From: Acidobacteriaceae bacterium
GTDB taxonomy: Bacteria > Acidobacteriota > Terriglobia > Terriglobales > Acidobacteriaceae
Length of the DNA stretch: 38,782 bases
Direction: 5' to 3'
Assembly (NCBI GenBank): GCA_003171315.1
Contig: PMYE01000139.1
Coordinates: 1 to 38,782, forward strand
Below are positions 9,012-21,798 of the stretch, piece after piece. Every line of letters begins with the position of its first letter. Position 1 is the first letter of the stretch. A program made the translations under genes and the position numbers. Below the pieces are notes generated by a model, which did not search any database, was not told the DNA's origin, and was given only the letters and a program-made list of their open reading frames with translations.

Positions 9012-9035
9012 TGTTTCAATCGTGTTATTGAAACA
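9012..9035 (+). promoter_or_regulatory. Hairpin at the 5' edge of the TPP riboswitch
   Basis: A perfect 9-bp stem pairs TGTTTCAAT (9012-9020) with ATTGAAACA (9027-9035), loop CGTGTT. Its right arm overlaps the expected 5' strand of riboswitch stem P1, and its sequence can also pair with the ribosome-site hairpin 125 bases downstream. Confidence 0.6.
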
Positions 9036-9110
9036 GGGGTGCTCCACGCGAGTGGGGCTGAGAAATACCCTCGAACCCGATCCGGATAATACCGGCGTGG
9101 GAAGTTTTCT
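9031..9110 (+). promoter_or_regulatory. TPP riboswitch (THI element)
   Basis: The order of conserved blocks is that of the thiamine-pyrophosphate aptamer: GGGGTGC (9036-9042), a short variable P3 stem TCCAC-GCGA-GTGGG, CTGAGAAATACCC (9058-9070, the pyrimidine-binding block), then GAACCCGATCCGGATAAT and ACCGGCGTGGGAAG (the pyrophosphate-binding half, ending near 9104). One change from consensus is C for T in ACC[T]GAT. P1 can form from AAAC (9031-9034) with GTTT (9104-9107). It lies about 85 bases upstream of the TonB receptor start and implies repression of the downstream genes when thiamine pyrophosphate is plentiful. Confidence 0.95.
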
Positions 9111-9154
9111 TCGACCGAGCGGCATTCTTCCTCACCTCACTTCGCGGCACAAGC

Positions 9155-14870: not shown

Positions 14871-15548
14871 TCACACTGCCAGCATCTCTGTGTACACTGC
14901 CATCCCCACCACGGCGTCCGCGCCCAAAGCATCCAGAGCATCCACTTCCTGCCGGCTGCGAATGCCGCCGGCGACAATGAGCTGCCGCTTTGTTAACGCG
15001 CGTAAGCGCGCCGCGGTTTCCGCTGGAAAGCCTTGCATTGTGCCTTCCATGTCGACGTGCGTGTAGAGGAACGCCGCGGCGTAGGGCTCAAGCTGCGGGA
15101 TCGCGTCATCGGGAGTCAGCTCCACCTGCGCCTTCCAGCCCTTCACCGCAATGCGCCCGTTTTTCGTATCGATCCCGGCGACAACGCGTTCTGCGCCCAC
15201 GGCCAGGGCGAGTTCGGCCGCGAAGTCCGTGTTGACCGCGCCTTCCGTCGAAAAAAGCGCTGAACCGATGATCACGCGTTTTGCGCCCGCATCCAGAACC
15301 TGCCGCGCGCGCTCGATGGAGTGAATTCCGCCGCCGGCCTGACAGGTCAACCGCCGCGCTATTTTGGCTACAAGAACGGAGTTCTCGCCCTGCCGCATCG
15401 CGGCGTCCAGGTCGATCAACTGCACCAACGGAAATTTCGAAAACTTCTCGATCCAGTACTCAAAATCGTCGAAGGCCAGGCGCAGCTTCTCACCCTGCAC
15501 AAGCTGCACGATGCGCCCGCCCATTAGATCGATCGAAGGAATCAGCAT
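14871..15548 (-). CDS. hisA: ProFAR isomerase
   Basis: HisA catalyses the Amadori rearrangement of ProFAR to PRFAR, the fourth step of histidine synthesis. The protein is a 225-residue (beta/alpha)8 barrel, slightly short for the family (about 240). The catalytic acids are Asp7 (IPSIDLMGG) and Asp127 (AGIDTKNG). The phosphate-binding loops are QAGGGI (70-75) and the late VAGGIRS. I chose the ATG at 15548, which overlaps the end of hisF; the longer open frame upstream is only hisF read in another frame. It is the last gene of the his operon. Confidence 0.96.
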
Positions 15549-16321
15549 GGCAGCCTCACTGGAACGCCAACTTCCGCTAGTTCTTCCTTGAGCGAACGTG
15601 AAGTGGAAACTCCGAAGTGAAAGATGCTGGCCGCAAGCGCCGCATCGGCTTTGCCGCGCGTGAACACGTCCACAAAGTGGGCCACCGTTCCCGCGCCGCC
15701 CGACGCGATGACGGGAATGCTCACCGCCTCGCTCACCGCCGCGGTCAATTCGCAGTCGAAGCCTGCGCGCGTCCCGTCCGAATCCATCGACGTCAGTAGA
15801 ATCTCGCCCGCGCCGCGCTGTTCGGCTTCGCGCGCCCACTCGACGACGGTTCGACCGACGGGGCGCCGGCCTCCGTGCACGTACACTTGCGCCCCGCGCA
15901 CCGGGTCGGCGGCCTTCGGATCGCGCCGCGCATCGATGGCGACTACAACCGCCTGCGCGCCGAAGCTGCTGCCGATGGCGCTGATCAGCGTAGGGTCGGC
16001 CAGCGCCGCCGAGTTGATGCTCACTTTGTCCGCGCCCGCCTCGAATACTTGCTCCGCGTCGCGCGCCGACTTGATGCCCCCGCCCACGCAGAACGGCACA
16101 AACAGATCGCGCGCCGTGCGCCGCACCGTGTCGAGCAGCGTCTGCCGTCCCTCATGCGTCGCTGTAATGTCCAGCAGCACAATCTCGTCCGCGCCCTCTT
16201 TCGCGTGCCGCGCCGCCTGGGTCGCCGGATCGCCCGCATCCACGAGATCGACAAACTGCACGCCTTTCACCACGCGGCCCGCATGCACGTCGAGGCAGGC
16301 GATGATGCGCTTGGTCAGCAT
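15542..16321 (-). CDS. hisF: Imidazole glycerol phosphate synthase, cyclase subunit
   Basis: HisF uses ammonia delivered by HisH to convert PRFAR to imidazole glycerol phosphate and AICAR. The 259-residue barrel starts with [20 protein letters not shown], with catalytic Asp11. The second catalytic residue is Asp130 in [10 protein letters not shown]. Phosphate loops are FCVGGGIKS (78-86) and [12 protein letters not shown] 15-residue stretch after Asp130 ([21 protein letters not shown]) is the flexible loop where HisF proteins vary. The gene overlaps hisH upstream by 7 bases and hisA downstream by 7 bases, as expected for a stoichiometric HisHF complex. Confidence 0.97.
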
Positions 16322-16947
16322 ACGGTTCCTTTTGCCTGCCAGGCGAGAAAATTGCGCAGAATCTTCAGCCCTGTTTCGCCGGATTTTTCCGGATGGAACT
16401 GTACGCCCATTACGTTACCGCGCTCGACGGCGGCGGCGAACGGCTCAATATAGTGCGTCACCGCGGCCGTGTCCGCGGTAACAGGCCCTTTGTACGAATG
16501 CGTAAAGTAAACAAACTCGCCGGGCTCGACTCCGGCCAGCAACCGCGAGGCAATTCCGTTTACGGGCCGCACTTCGAGGGAGTTCCACCCGACATGCGGA
16601 ACTTTTTCCTGGCTTTCGGCAAAGCGCGTGCACGATTCTGAAAAGTGTCCCAGCCCCGGCTGCTGCGGCGCTTCGCTCGATCCCGCGTAGAGCCACTGCA
16701 TGCCCACGCAGATGCCCAGGAACGGCACGCCGCGCGCAACGCCCGAACGAATCGCGCCTGTCAGCCCTGTCGCGTCCAGCCGTTCTGTCGCCGCGAAGTG
16801 ACCGACACCCGGCAGCACAATGCGCTCCGCGGATTCAACGAGCGTAAGATCGTCATCCGTCACGACCGTCTCCGCGCCCAGATGCCGCAGCGTTTTCAGC
16901 ACCGAGGTCAGGTTGCCGGCTTTGTAGTCAATGACGGTGACACGCAT
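16315..16947 (-). CDS. hisH: Imidazole glycerol phosphate synthase, glutaminase subunit
   Basis: HisH is the class-I glutamine amidotransferase that supplies ammonia to HisF. The 210-residue protein has the nucleophile Cys80 in [11 protein letters not shown] and the His185/Glu187 pair in VQFHPEKSG. The N-terminal strand is [11 protein letters not shown], and the oxyanion/tunnel region PGVGHF is present. Its ATG overlaps the hisB stop by one base (TGATG), which favours coupled translation. Confidence 0.97.
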
Positions 16948-17576
16948 CAGAGCAGCCCCTTCGTGCTCGGCAGCATCTTGCCCAGTTGCTTGTCGCGCGA
17001 GCAGGCCACGCGCAGCGCACGCGCGAATGCCTTGAAGATGGCCTCGATCTTGTGGTGATTGGAGCGGCCATACATCGTCTTTACGTGCACATTGGCCCGC
17101 GCCCCGCGCGCGAACCCCTCGAAGAAATCCGTTACCAGCTCGGTTTGCAGATCGCCAACAAGCCGCGTGCGCGCCTTCGTGTCCACGGCAAAGGCCGCGC
17201 GCCCGCTCAGATCCACGGCCGCAATCGCCAGCGTCTCGTCCATCGGCATCACAAAATATCCGGCGCGCAGAATGCCGCGCTTGTCGCCCAGCGCGCGGTC
17301 AAACGCTTCGCCGAGCGCGATGCCCACATCCTCGACCGTGTGGTGCTGATCCACATCGAGATCGCCGTCGCACTTCAACGCAAGATCGAAGGCGCCGTGC
17401 CGAGTAAACAGCTCCAGCATGTGATCGAAGAAGCGAATGCCGGTTGAGATTTCATACCGACCCTTTCCTTCGATCGCGAGCTCGATCTCGATGCGCGTCT
17501 CAGCTGTATTGCGCACAAGCGTCGCGGTCCGGGCGCTTGCGTTCTTAGCCGTAGTCCTGCTTTTCTTCGCTGTCAT
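16947..17576 (-). CDS. hisB: Imidazoleglycerol-phosphate dehydratase
   Basis: HisB dehydrates imidazole glycerol phosphate to imidazole acetol phosphate with two manganese ions. Metal-binding motifs are [10 protein letters not shown] (HHTVED at 78-83) and [18 protein letters not shown] (HHKIE at 174-178), plus [13 protein letters not shown]. The 209-residue monofunctional form lacks the histidinol-phosphatase domain fused in enterobacteria. The N-terminal ~18 residues are Lys/Ala/Thr-rich and outside the fold. I chose the ATG at 17576, which overlaps the hisC stop by one base; a GTG one codon upstream is also possible. Confidence 0.96.
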
Positions 17577-18670
17577 CACTTCCCGCCTTCCGCACGCAGC
17601 GCGGCCAGCGCTTCGTTCAGCGCCGCAACAGCCTGTCGCATCTGCTCACGCGTTCCAATCGTGATGCGCACACGGCCGTCGCAACCCGGATCGCTCGAGC
17701 GGTCGCGGACGAGCACGCCTGCGGCGCGCATCCGCCGCACAAACTCTGCATGCTGCGCGCCAATCTCAACAAGAATGAAATTCGCCCGGCTCGGCCAGCG
17801 GCGCACTCCGGCCGCATCGAGCGCCGCCTCAAACTCCGCCCGCGCCGCCAGCACCTCGCCCACATACCAATCCAGGTAGGGCGCATCTTCAAGCGCCGGC
17901 GGCAGGCAAGCCAGCGCCAGCGAGTTTACGCTGTACGGCGAAAGCACGCGCCTCACCCAGCGCATCAGTTCCTCGGGGCCGGCCAGCAGCCCCAGCCGCA
18001 ACCCGGCGAGCCCATACGCCTTGGAGAACGTGCGCGCCACAAAGAGATTTGGCAGCGTTCCCACGAGATCGATCAGCGTCTCGCCGTGGAAATGAAAGTA
18101 CGCCTCGTCGACGAGCAGCACTGCCTGCGGCGCGCGCCGCGCCAACTCGAGAAGCTGCGCGCGCGTGGCCACCGAACCCGATGGACTGTTGGGATTGGCG
18201 ATCGCAATCACTTTCGTTCGCGGTCCGATCGCCGCAGCCAGCCTGTCGAACGGAAACTGCAGATCGTCCCCCGCCTGCACCGCAACCACGCGTGCATCCG
18301 TCGCGGAGGCGTAGACCTCGTACATGGTGTACGTGGGCACGGGCAGCAGCAATTCGTTGTCCGCTTCGAGAAATGTCTCGAAGAGCACGTGAATGGCTTC
18401 ATCCACACCGTTGGTCAGCGCCACCTGCTCAGCGCGCAGCCCCAGATGCGCGGCCACGATCGCCTCCACCGGCTCGCGTTCGGGATACCGCGTCAGCGCA
18501 CCGGCAGAAATCTGCGCCAGAGTCTCGCGCACCTTCGGCGAGCACTCCAGTGTGTTCTCGTTAAAGTCCAACCGCATGGCCTCGCGGCTGCCCAGCGGAG
18601 GGTGATACTCCTTCATTGCCTGCACACGCGCGCGCGGCCCCGGAGCCACTGTCGTCGTTGCCTCAGCCAC
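17576..18670 (-). CDS. hisC: Histidinol-phosphate aminotransferase
   Basis: HisC transfers the amino group from glutamate to imidazole acetol phosphate with pyridoxal phosphate. The 364-residue fold-type I enzyme shows [12 protein letters not shown] near the N-terminus, [13 protein letters not shown] (158-170), [10 protein letters not shown] (185-194) and the PLP lysine Lys217 in [15 protein letters not shown]. It ends with RVRITIGT, the family's substrate-carboxylate Arg region. The start is GTG at 18670, preceded by AAGGAGG, a strong ribosome site located inside the end of hisD, which it overlaps by 8 bases. Confidence 0.96.
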
Positions 18671-19949
18671 GGGCCCTCCTTTTCAAGCGCGTTCGAATCG
18701 CCTCTGCATGGCCGCTTAGCCCTTCCGCTTCAGCCAGCAGCGCAGTCTTCGGTCCTAACTTCTTCACGCCCTCCGCGGTGTACTCCTGTACCGTGATGAG
18801 CTTCACGAAATCATTCACGCTCAACCCGCCGCGCACCCGCGCCATGCCGCCAGTCGGCAGCGTGTGATTCGGCCCGGAGACGTAGTCGCCCATCGGCTGC
18901 GAAGACCAACGGCCGACGAACACTGATCCTGCGTTCTGAACCCATTCCAGATCGCTCGCCGCGTCCACAGTCAGGTGCTCGGGAGCAAGGCGGTTCGTAA
19001 TCTGCCGCGCCTCTTCAGCCGAACCCGCAACAATCGCCACTCCGTTGCGCCGGAGCGCCTCGCGCGCCACTGCGTTGTTGCGGCAGCGCTCTCTTGTCTC
19101 GGCCATCACCGCCCGCGCCAGTTCTTCGCGCGTCGTCACAAACACCGCCAGCGCCTCGGGATCGTGCTCCGCCTGCGCCACCAGGTCGCTTGCAATGGCC
19201 GCTGCGTTGCCGCGCTCGCTGGTGACTACAATCTCCGTCGGGCCAGCCAGCATATCGATGGCGCAGTCGAACGCGACCAAGCGCTTGGCCGCGGTCACGT
19301 AGAGATTGCCCGGTCCCACGATCTTGTCCACACGCGGCAGGCTCGCGGCGCCATAGGCCAGCGCCGCCACGGAGTGCGCGCCGCCCAGACGATAGAACTC
19401 CTCGATCCCCAGGAGATGCGCGGCGGCAAGAGTTTCCTGCGCGGGCTTTGGCGAAACCACCACGATGCGCTTCACTCCCGCCACCTGCGCCGGAATCGCC
19501 GTCATCAGCAGCGTCGAGGGCAGTGGATGCCTTCCGCTCGGCACATAGCACCCGACAGAACCAAGTGGGCGCACCAACTGCCCGGTCGTCAAGCCTTCTG
19601 TGGTCGAGTCACTCCACGATGCCGGCATCTGCCGCTGCGCGAACCCGCGAATCTGAGCAGCCGCCGTAGAAAGCGCGTCACGCAGCGCGGGGTCGAGCGC
19701 CTTCCACGCGGCGGCCATCTCTTCCTGTGTTACCCGGAGGGCGGCCACACCCGTTTCCGGCATGGCAAGCCCGTCAAGCTCCGCCGCGTAGCGAAGCAGC
19801 GCGCGGTCGCCTTGCTTGCGTACGTCGCTCACAATGCGCTGCACCGTGGGCAGAACAGAATCCAGCGCCGCGCCGCCGCGGCGTTCCAGCTCCGCCAGCG
19901 CCGCTGCCGCGGCCCGCGCATTTCGTCCCGTGGTCCGGATCAGTTTCAT
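18663..19949 (-). CDS. hisD: Histidinol dehydrogenase
   Basis: HisD performs the last two oxidations, histidinol to histidine, with NAD and zinc. The 428-residue protein has the general base pair Glu324/His325 in NRLAPEHLTVD, the substrate and zinc region AEHDPEA (260-266), PSGRHPLPST (137-146) and KIVGPGNLYVTAAKR (209-223). The length is standard. The ATG at 19949 lies 13 bases downstream of the hisG stop, the largest gap inside the operon. Confidence 0.97.
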   Translation of the reverse strand: MKLIRTTGRNARAAAAALAELERRGGAALDSVLPTVQRIVSDVRKQGDRALLRYAAELDGLAMPETGVAALRVTQEEMAAAWKALDPALRDALSTAAAQIRGFAQRQMPASWSDSTTEGLTTGQLVRPLGSVGCYVPSGRHPLPSTLLMTAIPAQVAGVKRIVVVSPKPAQETLAAAHLLGIEEFYRLGGAHSVAALAYGAASLPRVDKIVGPGNLYVTAAKRLVAFDCAIDMLAGPTEIVVTSERGNAAAIASDLVAQAEHDPEALAVFVTTREELARAVMAETRERCRNNAVAREALRRNGVAIVAGSAEEARQITNRLAPEHLTVDAASDLEWVQNAGSVFVGRWSSQPMGDYVSGPNHTLPTGGMARVRGGLSVNDFVKLITVQEYTAEGVKKLGPKTALLAEAEGLSGHAEAIRTRLKRRARG

Positions 19950-19962
19950 CGTTCGTCTCTCG

Positions 19963-20838
19963 TTACAGCACCACTTTGTTCAGCGGATACTCCACAACCC
20001 CCGCCGCCCGCGCCGCTTTCAACCGCGGAATCACATCCCGTGCCACGCGCTCTTCGAGAATGGTGTTGACCGCGACCCATTCTGAATCGCTCAACTGCGA
20101 AATGGTCGGCGAATTCAGGGCCGGCAGCACGGCCAGTACGCCCTCAAGGTCTTCGCGCTTCACGTTCAGCATCAGCCCCACCTGCGCCTGCGCGTCGATG
20201 GCGCCGCGCAGCATGAGTGCAATCTGGCCGATCTTCTGCCGCTTCCACTCGTCGGCCAGGGCGGCCTTGCCGGCGATGAGGTGCGTCTCGCTCTCCATCA
20301 CCGTGTCGATGATCTTCAGGTGATTGGCCTTCAGCGAACTGCCGGTCTCCGTTACTTCAATGATCGCGTCGGCCAGCATAGGCGGTTTCACCTCCGTCGC
20401 GCCCCAGCTGAACTCCACCTTCACGTTCACGCCCTTCGCGGCAAAGTAGCGCTTGCTCACCTCCACGAGCTCCGTGGCGATGATCTTGCCTTCCAGGTCT
20501 TCGGCCTTCTCATACCCGCTTGCCTCGGGCACGGCCAGCACCCAGCGCACCTTGCGGCGGCTTTGCTTGGCATAGGTCAGAGTGGTCACGCTCTCCACGT
20601 CCAGGCCGCTTTCGACAACCCAGTCGATGCCCGTGAGGCCCGCATCGAGCGCGCCGTGATCGACGTAACGCGCCATCTCCTGCGCGCGAATCAGCATGCA
20701 CTCGATCTCGCTGTCGTCGATCGACGGAAAATAAGAGCGGCCGTCGGAGTAGATATTCCATCCCGCGCGCTTGAACAGCGCAATGGTCGCGTCCTGCAAA
20801 CTGCCCTTGGGAATTCCCAGTCTCAGCTTATTGGCCAC
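19963..20838 (-). CDS. hisG: ATP phosphoribosyltransferase, long form
   Basis: HisG joins ATP and PRPP in the committed step and is normally feedback-inhibited by histidine. At 291 residues it is the long (HisG-L) form with a C-terminal ACT-like regulatory domain, so no HisZ partner is needed. Visible family segments are [32 protein letters not shown], the PRPP loop [12 protein letters not shown], and the regulatory part [20 protein letters not shown]. The start is GTG at 20838, preceded by GGAGGTGAACC within the end of hisI, which it overlaps by 11 bases. Confidence 0.97.
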
Positions 20839-21187
20839 GGTTCACCTCCGCGCCCGCGGCGATGGGCTTCGTAAAACAGCTCACCGTGCCCTCGTGGCAA
20901 ACCAGGCCGTCACCTTCCACCTCCACGCGAAACAGCAGCGTGTCGTTGTCGCAATCAGTCGCGGCCGAAACCACGCGCAGCCGGTTGCCGCTGGTCTCGC
21001 CTTTCATCCACAGCTTCTGGCGCGTGCGGCTCCAGAAGGTCACAAAGCCGGTCTCTTGCGTCTTCGCGTAGCTGGCTGCATTCAGAAAACCCAGCATCAG
21101 CACCTCACCCGTGCGCGCGTCCTGCACAATGCCCGGCACGAGGCCATCCATCTTGTCAAAATCGATTCTCGCCGTATTATCGCTCAT
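20828..21187 (-). CDS. hisI: Phosphoribosyl-AMP cyclohydrolase
   Basis: HisI opens the adenine ring of PR-AMP. The 119-residue protein contains the metal and zinc motifs DCDNDT (78-83) and [10 protein letters not shown] (96-105), plus [18 protein letters not shown]. It is the stand-alone cyclohydrolase with no fused HisE domain, and hisE is not in the operon. I chose the ATG at 21187, preceded by GGATGGAAG; the longer open frame runs back through the attenuator terminator and is not real. Being first in the operon, directly behind the attenuator, is unusual for hisI. Confidence 0.95.
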
Positions 21188-21239: not shown

Positions 21240-21270
21240 AAAAAACCCACCAGCATGATTCGCCGGCGGG
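21240..21270 (-). terminator. his attenuator terminator hairpin
   Basis: Read on the minus strand, CCCGCCGGC (21270 to 21262) pairs with GCTGGTGGG (21254 to 21246) over 9 bp including two G-U pairs, with loop GAATCAT. The tract TTTTTT (21245 to 21240) follows. It is an intrinsic terminator placed between the leader peptide and hisI, the position expected for transcription attenuation. Confidence 0.9.
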
Positions 21271-21329
21271 CTTGGTGTTTCTTTCCGATCTCTCTGGCCG
21301 TCTACTTCAGGCCATGGCAGTCCGCCGGC
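21262..21329 (-). promoter_or_regulatory. his antiterminator pairing
   Basis: GCCGGCGG inside the leader-peptide gene (minus strand 21329 to 21322) is perfectly complementary over 8 bases to CCGCCGGC (21269 to 21262), the 5' arm of the terminator. If a ribosome stalls at the His codons just upstream, this segment stays free and can capture the terminator arm. If translation continues to the stop, it is covered and the terminator forms. Confidence 0.8.
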
Positions 21330-21376
21330 ATGGTTGTCCCATGATGGTGGTGGCCGTGATGGCGGAGGCTCTGCAT
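21302..21376 (-). CDS. hisL: his operon leader peptide (24 aa, 7 His)
   Basis: An ATG at 21376 opens a 24-codon frame that reads MQSLRHHGHHHHGTTMPADC, then HGLK and TAG. Six of its seven His codons lie within seven consecutive codons (HHGHHHH). This is the hallmark of a histidine-operon leader, where scarce charged tRNA-His stalls the ribosome. The stop lies 32 bases before the terminator hairpin, and the antiterminator segment lies four codons after the His run. A ribosome site is weak (GAAG about 5-6 bases upstream). It is the first element of the his operon and would regulate hisI through hisA. Confidence 0.92.
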   Translation of the reverse strand: MQSLRHHGHHHHGTTMPADCHGLK

Positions 21377-21384
21377 CTGTCTTC

Positions 21385-21414
21385 AAGGTACGGGTAAAGC
21401 CCCGAAGGTGTCAA
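21385..21414 (-). promoter_or_regulatory. Candidate promoter of the his operon
   Basis: On the minus strand a perfect TTGACA (21414 to 21409) is followed after 18 bases by TACCTT (21390 to 21385), a poor -10. Transcription would start about at the leader ATG (21376), which would make the leader peptide almost leaderless. The -35 is convincing; the exact -10 is not. Confidence 0.4.
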
Positions 21415-21459
21415 ATCCTTTTCTTGCCGCCGGCCCATGAGCAAGTGGAGAATGAATTC

Positions 21460-21798
21460 GTGCAAGACCAAGCGCGATTCACGTTCGTTCCCCTGGCGAT
21501 TCTGGCTTTCTGCCTTGCCTTCGGCGGGCGAGCCGCTCCGGCTGCTCGGCAATCGAGCCCAACGCAAACCGCAGCGAAGACAAAACCTGTTCCGCCGCCC
21601 GAGGCGCGCCTCGACATCAACCACGCCAGCGCCGATGAGCTGCTGAAAGTTCCCGGCATGACGCCAAGCTGGGCAGGCCGCATCGTGCGCTTCCGCCCTT
21701 ACCGCACCAAGCAGGATCTGCTGGACCGCGGCGTGCTTCCAAGCGAAGTTTACGACCGCATCAAGGACTACGTTATCGCGCATCGCGACAAGGAATGA
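21460..21798 (+). CDS. ComEA-like helix-hairpin-helix protein
   Basis: From the GTG at 21460 (GGAG at 21447-21450 upstream) the product has 112 residues. RFTFVPLAILAFCLAFGG is a signal peptide or anchor, followed by a Pro/Ala/Lys-rich linker. The C-terminal segment LDINHASADELLKVPGM, then TPSWAGRIVRF and KQDLLDRGVL, is a helix-hairpin-helix domain of the ComEA/type II secretion GspK-like class that binds DNA without sequence preference. It could take part in DNA uptake, although no other competence gene is adjacent. It is divergent from the his operon and its start region abuts the his promoter. An upstream GTG at 21445 is an alternative start. Confidence 0.85.
   Translation: MQDQARFTFVPLAILAFCLAFGGRAAPAARQSSPTQTAAKTKPVPPPEARLDINHASADELLKVPGMTPSWAGRIVRFRPYRTKQDLLDRGVLPSEVYDRIKDYVIAHRDKE

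Follow-up and report, generated by a model that had tools for sequence, protein, structure and literature searches.

How is the histidine biosynthesis operon of this acidobacterium controlled, and does that control follow the plan of the enterobacterial his leader? The window, that is the whole stretch of DNA analysed here (38,782 nucleotides of an Acidobacteriaceae contig), was described in a first-pass annotation, made from the sequence alone, as carrying an eight-gene his operon preceded by a 24-codon minus-strand frame (21376 to 21302) with the run HHGHHHH, seven His codons in all, a GC-rich terminator with six T, and an 8-base leader segment perfectly complementary to the 5' arm of the terminator. 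Reading and translation returned the same frame, with six of its seven His codons in the run and the seventh at codon 21, and the terminator was recovered with its T run. The complementarity is also exact, GCCGGCGG (21329-21322) matching CCGCCGGC (21269-21262) over all 8 bases. The operon was borne out by its open reading frames and their Pfam matches (hisI, hisG, hisD, a class I/II aminotransferase for hisC, hisB, a glutamine amidotransferase for hisH, and two His_biosynth proteins for hisF and hisA), which make it the cognate biosynthetic operon of a His-rich leader. The gene hisI starts at 21187, leaving a gap of 114 nt after the leader stop codon. The TTGACA and TACCTT promoter elements are an addition to the earlier description. 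The features are as follows.

21409..21414, minus strand: -35 element TTGACA of the predicted his promoter, the best match, conserved in relatives
21385..21390, minus strand: -10 element TACCTT (TAnnnT), after an 18-nt spacer, ending 8 nt before the leader ATG
21302..21376, minus strand: leader peptide gene, 24 codons plus TAG, MQSLRHHGHHHHGTTMPADCHGLK, with the HHGHHHH run
21361..21365, minus strand: candidate strand 1 (CCGCC), for which pairing with GGCGG of strand 2 is possible
21329..21343, minus strand: hairpin CAUGG/CCAUG, directly 3' of the His run and abutting strand 2
21322..21329, minus strand: strand 2, the 5' strand of the antiterminator (GCCGGCGG), within the leader gene (codons 16-19), pairing with strand 3
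21295..21314, minus strand: hairpin UGGCC/GGCCA, spanning the leader stop codon, absent from some clades
21262..21269, minus strand: strand 3 (CCGCCGGC), in the 5' arm of the terminator, common to antiterminator and terminator
21240..21273, minus strand: intrinsic terminator, 13-bp stem (21273-21243), 5-nt loop, six T (21245-21240)
14871..21187, minus strand: operon hisI-hisG-hisD-hisC-hisB-hisH-hisF-hisA

Elsewhere in the window, a TPP riboswitch was identified at 9025-9120 on the plus strand (67.5 bits), and a divergent open reading frame with a helix-hairpin-helix motif (PF12836), presumably ComEA-like, occupies 21334-21798 on the plus strand, with its likely start near the his promoter.

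The arrangement very probably constitutes a ribosome-mediated transcription attenuator, itself probably leaderless, that controls the his operon. RNA polymerase would begin no more than about three bases from the leader AUG, and ribosomes would load on the leaderless RNA end. When charged His-tRNA is scarce, a ribosome would stall in the His run, so that strand 2, just beyond its front edge, would be free to pair with strand 3 as it emerges; with strands 2 and 3 paired, the terminator could not form and the eight genes would therefore be transcribed. When His-tRNA is plentiful, the ribosome would cover strand 2 during the emergence of strand 3, which would then pair with strand 4, and transcription would stop. 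We infer this response to histidine, and its timing, from an anatomy, an antiterminator pairing, a promoter position and a spacing that are all conserved in close relatives.

Conservation was assessed in 110 hisI loci, taken from 30 genomes (that of the window included) and 80 GTDB contigs with titles naming Acidobacteriaceae, Acidobacteria, or genera such as Granulicella, Edaphobacter and Terracidiphilus. Removal of duplicates left 87 non-redundant hisI upstream regions, and an alignment of this kind had been proposed in the first-pass annotation. A His-rich leader (at least four His in seven codons) was present in 86/87; the only region without the run, L035, is cut by a contig end and retains the tail MPADCHGLK. 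By the same criterion, leaders were found in 25 of 4350 shuffles of the 87 regions and in 0/87 on the opposite strand. For the window itself, the 500-nt upstream region was shuffled 5000 times with its dinucleotides kept, and at least five His in seven codons (observed: six) never occurred; another 5000 such shuffles gave at least four in 12 cases. Among other residues on the same strand, the nearest were clusters of Ala (40/87) and Arg (39/87), which are frequent because GC-rich composition would give them.

A lenient pattern (a G-rich arm and a T run after the leader) identified a terminator in 86/86 regions, whereas a stricter stem scan listed none in 16/86 and produced a few spurious stems. 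The failures are a fault of the strict scan, since both the alignment and the lenient pattern show terminators in these regions, and an early impression that Granulicella and Edaphobacter leaders have no terminator was ruled out on the same grounds. Thus, in close relatives, all 86 upstream regions that are complete retain both the His run and the terminator. The residues after the run vary (MPADCHGL or SVLAAVSG), and these amino acids change along with the RNA pairing; therefore, the constraint appears to lie on the RNA and not on the peptide.

In the alignment of the 86 leaders (A1), where the antiterminator comprises 688 cells, 98.1% of cells in strands 2 and 3 were paired, compared to 25-65% in controls with one strand slid by one to three columns. 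Twenty-seven antiterminator cells were changed on both sides (9.1 in shuffles). There was no excess over shuffles in the number of antiterminator pairs with changes on both sides (2, shuffles 2.2) or of pair types (7, shuffles 7.2), nor in those numbers for the terminator-state structure (11 pairs, shuffles 8.9; 30 pair types, shuffles 28.5). The antiterminator helix was chosen by RNAalifold unprompted. A tree was built from 83 loci, the other three of the 86 being too short; on it, the three most variable antiterminator pairs showed 28 one-sided changes, of which 23 kept the pair, and one double change. Alignment, RNAalifold and tree together describe an antiterminator that excludes the terminator and is conserved in close relatives.

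The remaining helices were conserved to different degrees. In the CAUGG/CCAUG hairpin, 98.3% of cells were paired and 3 of the 5 pairs showed changes on both sides, with a variant CACGC/GCGUG at this place in L087; the terminator was paired in 88.1% of cells (A1), and the UGGCC/GGCCA hairpin in 83.4% (four pairs) and 64.2% (fifth pair). On the tree, hairpin pair 50-56 and terminator pair 140-156 often break, with 4/9 and 0/20 one-sided changes, respectively, keeping the pair. A sequestration of strand 2 by strand 1 is suggested by clade-specific folds and by the third base of codon 4, which was C in 60/60 leaders with a P/S/TAD or PAE tail despite nine different amino acids at that position (a raw count, with no background); it has little folding support and is not decisive. 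The stability of the 161-nt leader RNA was not unusual (z -1.09).

The spacing between the His run and strand 2 is also conserved. The last His codon upstream of strand 2 was 11 nt away from it in 68 of 86 leaders, 5 nt in 13 and another distance in 5, and strand 2 ended 17 nt (65 leaders) or 20 nt (17 leaders) upstream of the leader stop codon in 82/86. In a folding model in which the ribosome was assumed to cover 12 nt past the first A-site base, the pairing of strands 2 and 3 ahead of the emergence of strand 4 was 1.0 for an A site 14 nt upstream of strand 2 and dropped to 0.93 at 11 nt and 0.08 at 8 nt; the codon at 14 nt is His in 81/85 leaders. From this drop, it follows that the end of the main His run lies near the point at which a stalled ribosome would begin to hide strand 2. 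A stall at the His codon 5 nt from strand 2 (13/86) is predicted to mask strand 2, as would a stall at codon 21, which is His in the window and in 34/85 leaders at that place. With no ribosome on the leader, modelled 2:3 pairing was 0.96 for the window, with a mean of 0.69 and a median of 0.90 over the 86; the untranslated state is thus predicted by the model to be ON, with the antiterminator formed, and we infer read-through of an untranslated leader.

Generic ribosome-position folding favoured the "stalled" over the "at stop" position by more than 0.5 in 56/58 leaders of clade A, 16/19 of clade B and 7/9 of clade C, compared to 106/174, 44/57 and 16/27, respectively, when the post-run segment was shuffled; for other families the figures were 27/41 observed and 54/123 shuffled. 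This approach was dropped as proof of function since its shuffled control was too weak, and the case therefore rests on conservation and spacing.

Several lines of evidence bear on where the leader RNA begins. The -35 and -10 boxes in the 86 relatives were chosen as best matches, and on that basis the -35 element (at most 60 nt upstream) was exactly TTGACA in 79/86 and TTGACT in 7/86, TAnnnT was present in 85/86, and the spacer was 17 or 18 nt in 83/86; the TTGACA/TACCTT promoter was missing from the output of a strict sigma-70 consensus scan run on the window. The distance from TAnnnT to the start codon is an unselected count, and the end of the motif lay 8-9 nt upstream of that codon in 77/86 and almost nowhere else. 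Of 44 leaders from other families, 39 had the end of TAnnnT 7-11 nt upstream of the closest in-frame start, compared to 2 at 22-26 nt; the first choice of starts had favoured those near a -10 box, and repetition with the nearest in-frame ATG gave the same peak. Sequences resembling Shine-Dalgarno 4-mers (-15 to -4) preceded 3/86 and 3/44 leader starts, compared to 52/82 hisI starts in the same loci. On position alone, the -10 box is near enough to the start codon for transcription to be expected to begin there or close by, and the leader starts are without a Shine-Dalgarno sequence. Given these two features, the 5' end of the leader RNA is probably no more than about three bases from the start codon, and the RNA is predicted to be leaderless. 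According to the sections available of a survey of leaderless genes, their sign is a TAnnnT with its first T about 12 bp upstream (14-15 nt in the present leaders), and they occur in 3/3 Acidobacteria genomes, at 13.3% of genes on average (PMC3160421). As a separate observation, locus L214, on contig C94 of the window's own genome, has a promoter-like TTGACA/TAGCGT followed after 8 nt by a two-codon frame, ATG-AAT-TAG.

Leader peptides read from the 5' end of the RNA have precedents in other phyla. The parts consulted of two reports describe leaderless leuL, trpL, ilvL, thrL and metL in Streptomyces lividans (PMC8079986) and a leaderless trpL in Sinorhizobium meliloti (PMC7298713), with the Streptomyces leaders also sharing the TAnnnT -10 box. 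As far as those parts go, the eight Streptomyces leaders do not include one for His, and start sites were mapped there while they are only predicted here. For Corynebacterium glutamicum, the portion seen of PMC3896937 reports three his operons with leaderless mRNAs and a hisD leader that has no His peptide. Known His leaders, judging from excerpts of PMC9413887 and PMC2965389, belong to gammaproteobacteria and some Firmicutes. The Firmicutes attenuators share with the present family short leaders with His codons, a terminator and an antiterminator, before hisZ/hisS paralogues or his operons; they belong to another phylum, and the likeness is drawn from these partial descriptions and not from sequences. 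The same excerpts of PMC2965389 report no sequence similarity between Firmicutes and Proteobacteria leaders and, as of 2010, almost no associated functions for the attenuators predicted in Acidobacteria. No description of a His leader in Acidobacteria was found in the parts of the literature that the search covered, most subscription papers being outside its scope. A 2004 study by Vitreschak et al. reportedly deals with attenuators.

The E. coli hisL leader (Rfam RF00514) shares with the present element the His-run leader peptide, the choice between antiterminator and terminator, and the position before a his operon. The first-pass annotation had gone further, proposing that the enterobacterial mechanism operates here by exactly the same plan; the class of mechanism, ribosome-mediated attenuation, stands, but the plan does not. 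Whereas E. coli has its antiterminator strand 35-46 nt beyond the stop codon, strand 2 falls within the leader gene here, the choice is a simple one among three strands, and the leader looks leaderless. The E. coli operon begins with hisG, whereas here hisI is first and the -10 box lies 8 nt from the leader start codon. In E. coli trp-type attenuators, strand 3 likewise pairs with either strand 2 or strand 4; the amino acid differs, and strand 2 follows the leader stop codon there but lies within the leader gene here. In a control model of E. coli hisL, nt 86-97 took part in an antiterminator when the A site was at any of codons 5-13, a range that includes His codons 8-13 but not the last (14); no antiterminator formed without a ribosome or when the ribosome was at the stop codon, whose last base is nt 51. 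This result agrees with textbook behaviour.

There are several potential alternatives to the leaderless attenuator. A classical enterobacterial design, with a leadered hisL, the A-F relay of RF00514 and termination in the absence of translation, would suit the same kind of operon and codon, and the full-length RF00514 model does match the window, though weakly (25.9 bits, with E 0.027 for 351 bases). However, this score is below the cut-off of 49 bits, and with strand 2 inside the leader gene it led us to reject membership of RF00514; 0/297 Acidobacteriota genomes scored over the cut-off (in a search whose filters lose weak matches). Together with the missing Shine-Dalgarno sequence, the position of the antiterminator strand, and an untranslated leader that pairs 2:3 in the model where that of E. 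coli does not, this makes the classical design unlikely. Separately, the only RF00514 match at E <= 0.001 among the 297 genomes was L111 (genome G161), at 36 bits and also below the cut-off.

It could also be that the terminator and leader are real but that control is exerted by Rho, by an RNA-binding protein or by reinitiation at hisI, with the His run secondary. Reinitiation after leader genes has been proposed, in the part consulted of PMC4833913, for gaps near 10 bp, compared to 114 nt here. The terminator is intrinsic, and relatives conserve the His run, the antiterminator and the spacing of the two as a set, so control of this kind is very improbable. His-rich peptides can bind metals, and a gene for a poly-His peptide does exist elsewhere (L170), so that the leader could be imagined as a metal-binding micropeptide gene with an incidental terminator; since it sits before hisI in relatives (once before hisG, L152), and the residues after the run track RNA pairing instead of preserving one peptide motif, we regard this as scarcely credible.

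The distribution of the attenuator in the phylum was examined with a covariance model, R1, built from A1. At E <= 0.001, R1 matched 174/299 genomes of the class and 50/297 of the phylum, false matches included; the model is weak at whole-genome scale, where about 26-28 bits are needed for E 0.001. On 30 short leader-bearing regions from outside the close relatives, it found 29 (not L222), many at 16-27 bits. Of the matches fetched from other families of the class, 19/20 were a His leader with hisI downstream and one was false, while 8/15 fetched from outside the class had a His-rich leader, before hisI (7) or hisG alone (1, L152). The false matches fell on other terminators (L143, and the other 7/15 from outside the class). 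Independently of R1, 40 hisI upstream regions (39 outside the class) were picked among the matches listed; a leader was present in 17, all from the better-scoring first 20, and absent from 23. In 20 of those 23, hisF lies just upstream of hisI, which is therefore not the first gene there. Seventeen further regions came from the class outside the family, with a His-rich leader in f2 (10/10), f3 (1/1), f11 (1/1) and f5 (1/1, a weaker run) and none in f4 (0/2), f9 (0/1) or f10 (0/1). Two more f1 regions yielded one His-rich leader, the other being a 103-nt contig end. Judged by sequence, the leader design thus also stands before operons that begin with hisI in other families of the phylum. Beyond the close relatives, support for a conserved antiterminator is only partial: duplexes of the post-run segment with the terminator region had a mean z of -1.39 against shuffles, with 30/41 below 0 and 17/41 matched by at most 5 of 100 shuffles, and a terminator was missing by pattern in 3/44 leaders from other families.

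A broader reading is that these leaders form an old, phylum-wide leaderless class with a reversed default, ON without a ribosome and turned OFF only by a ribosome that has passed all His codons and is seated on the leader-gene strand. We put this forward tentatively, as somewhat doubtful in its full extent; under it, since initiation does without a Shine-Dalgarno sequence, the switch would in addition sense how leaderless (70S) initiation stands. The leaderless attenuator itself offers a proposal for the control of histidine synthesis in a large phylum, and the RNA family described here is out of reach of the Rfam His_leader model. Its layout is simpler than that of E. coli, and since the switch strand lies in the leader gene and translation is apparently leaderless, the question of leaderless initiation and tight translation-transcription coupling becomes testable. 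The comparison points to His leaders having originated, or been rebuilt, on quite different RNA architectures.

Additional copies within one genome were also considered, and all five second matches fetched (L167-L171) proved false. One of these, L170, encodes a peptide of 40 residues whose N-terminus is signal-like and whose tail is HHHRHHHHHHH; a hairpin, a T run and an apparent carA follow, and it is not a his leader. Another, L169, gave the first instance of an element found in three loci (L238, L239 and L240) from three genomes of the same family with Cys/Met-rich leader peptides, e.g. MSLDAHNSTMAMCICMCICGRGLWVPSRERSN. In these loci TTGACA and a TAnnnT 7-9 nt before the ATG precede the leader, and a hairpin and a T-rich stretch follow it; in L238 and L240, the gene that comes next qualifies as a homocysteine synthase by the NCBIfam cut-off. 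The three elements are likely leaderless Cys/Met attenuators, and at least one other pathway thus seems to share the plan, with Cys/Met-rich leaders and similar promoter-to-start spacing before homocysteine synthase genes. Matches to the Cys/Met peptide were found in 5/120 genomes at E <= 0.05, three of them with the promoter-leader-hairpin layout.
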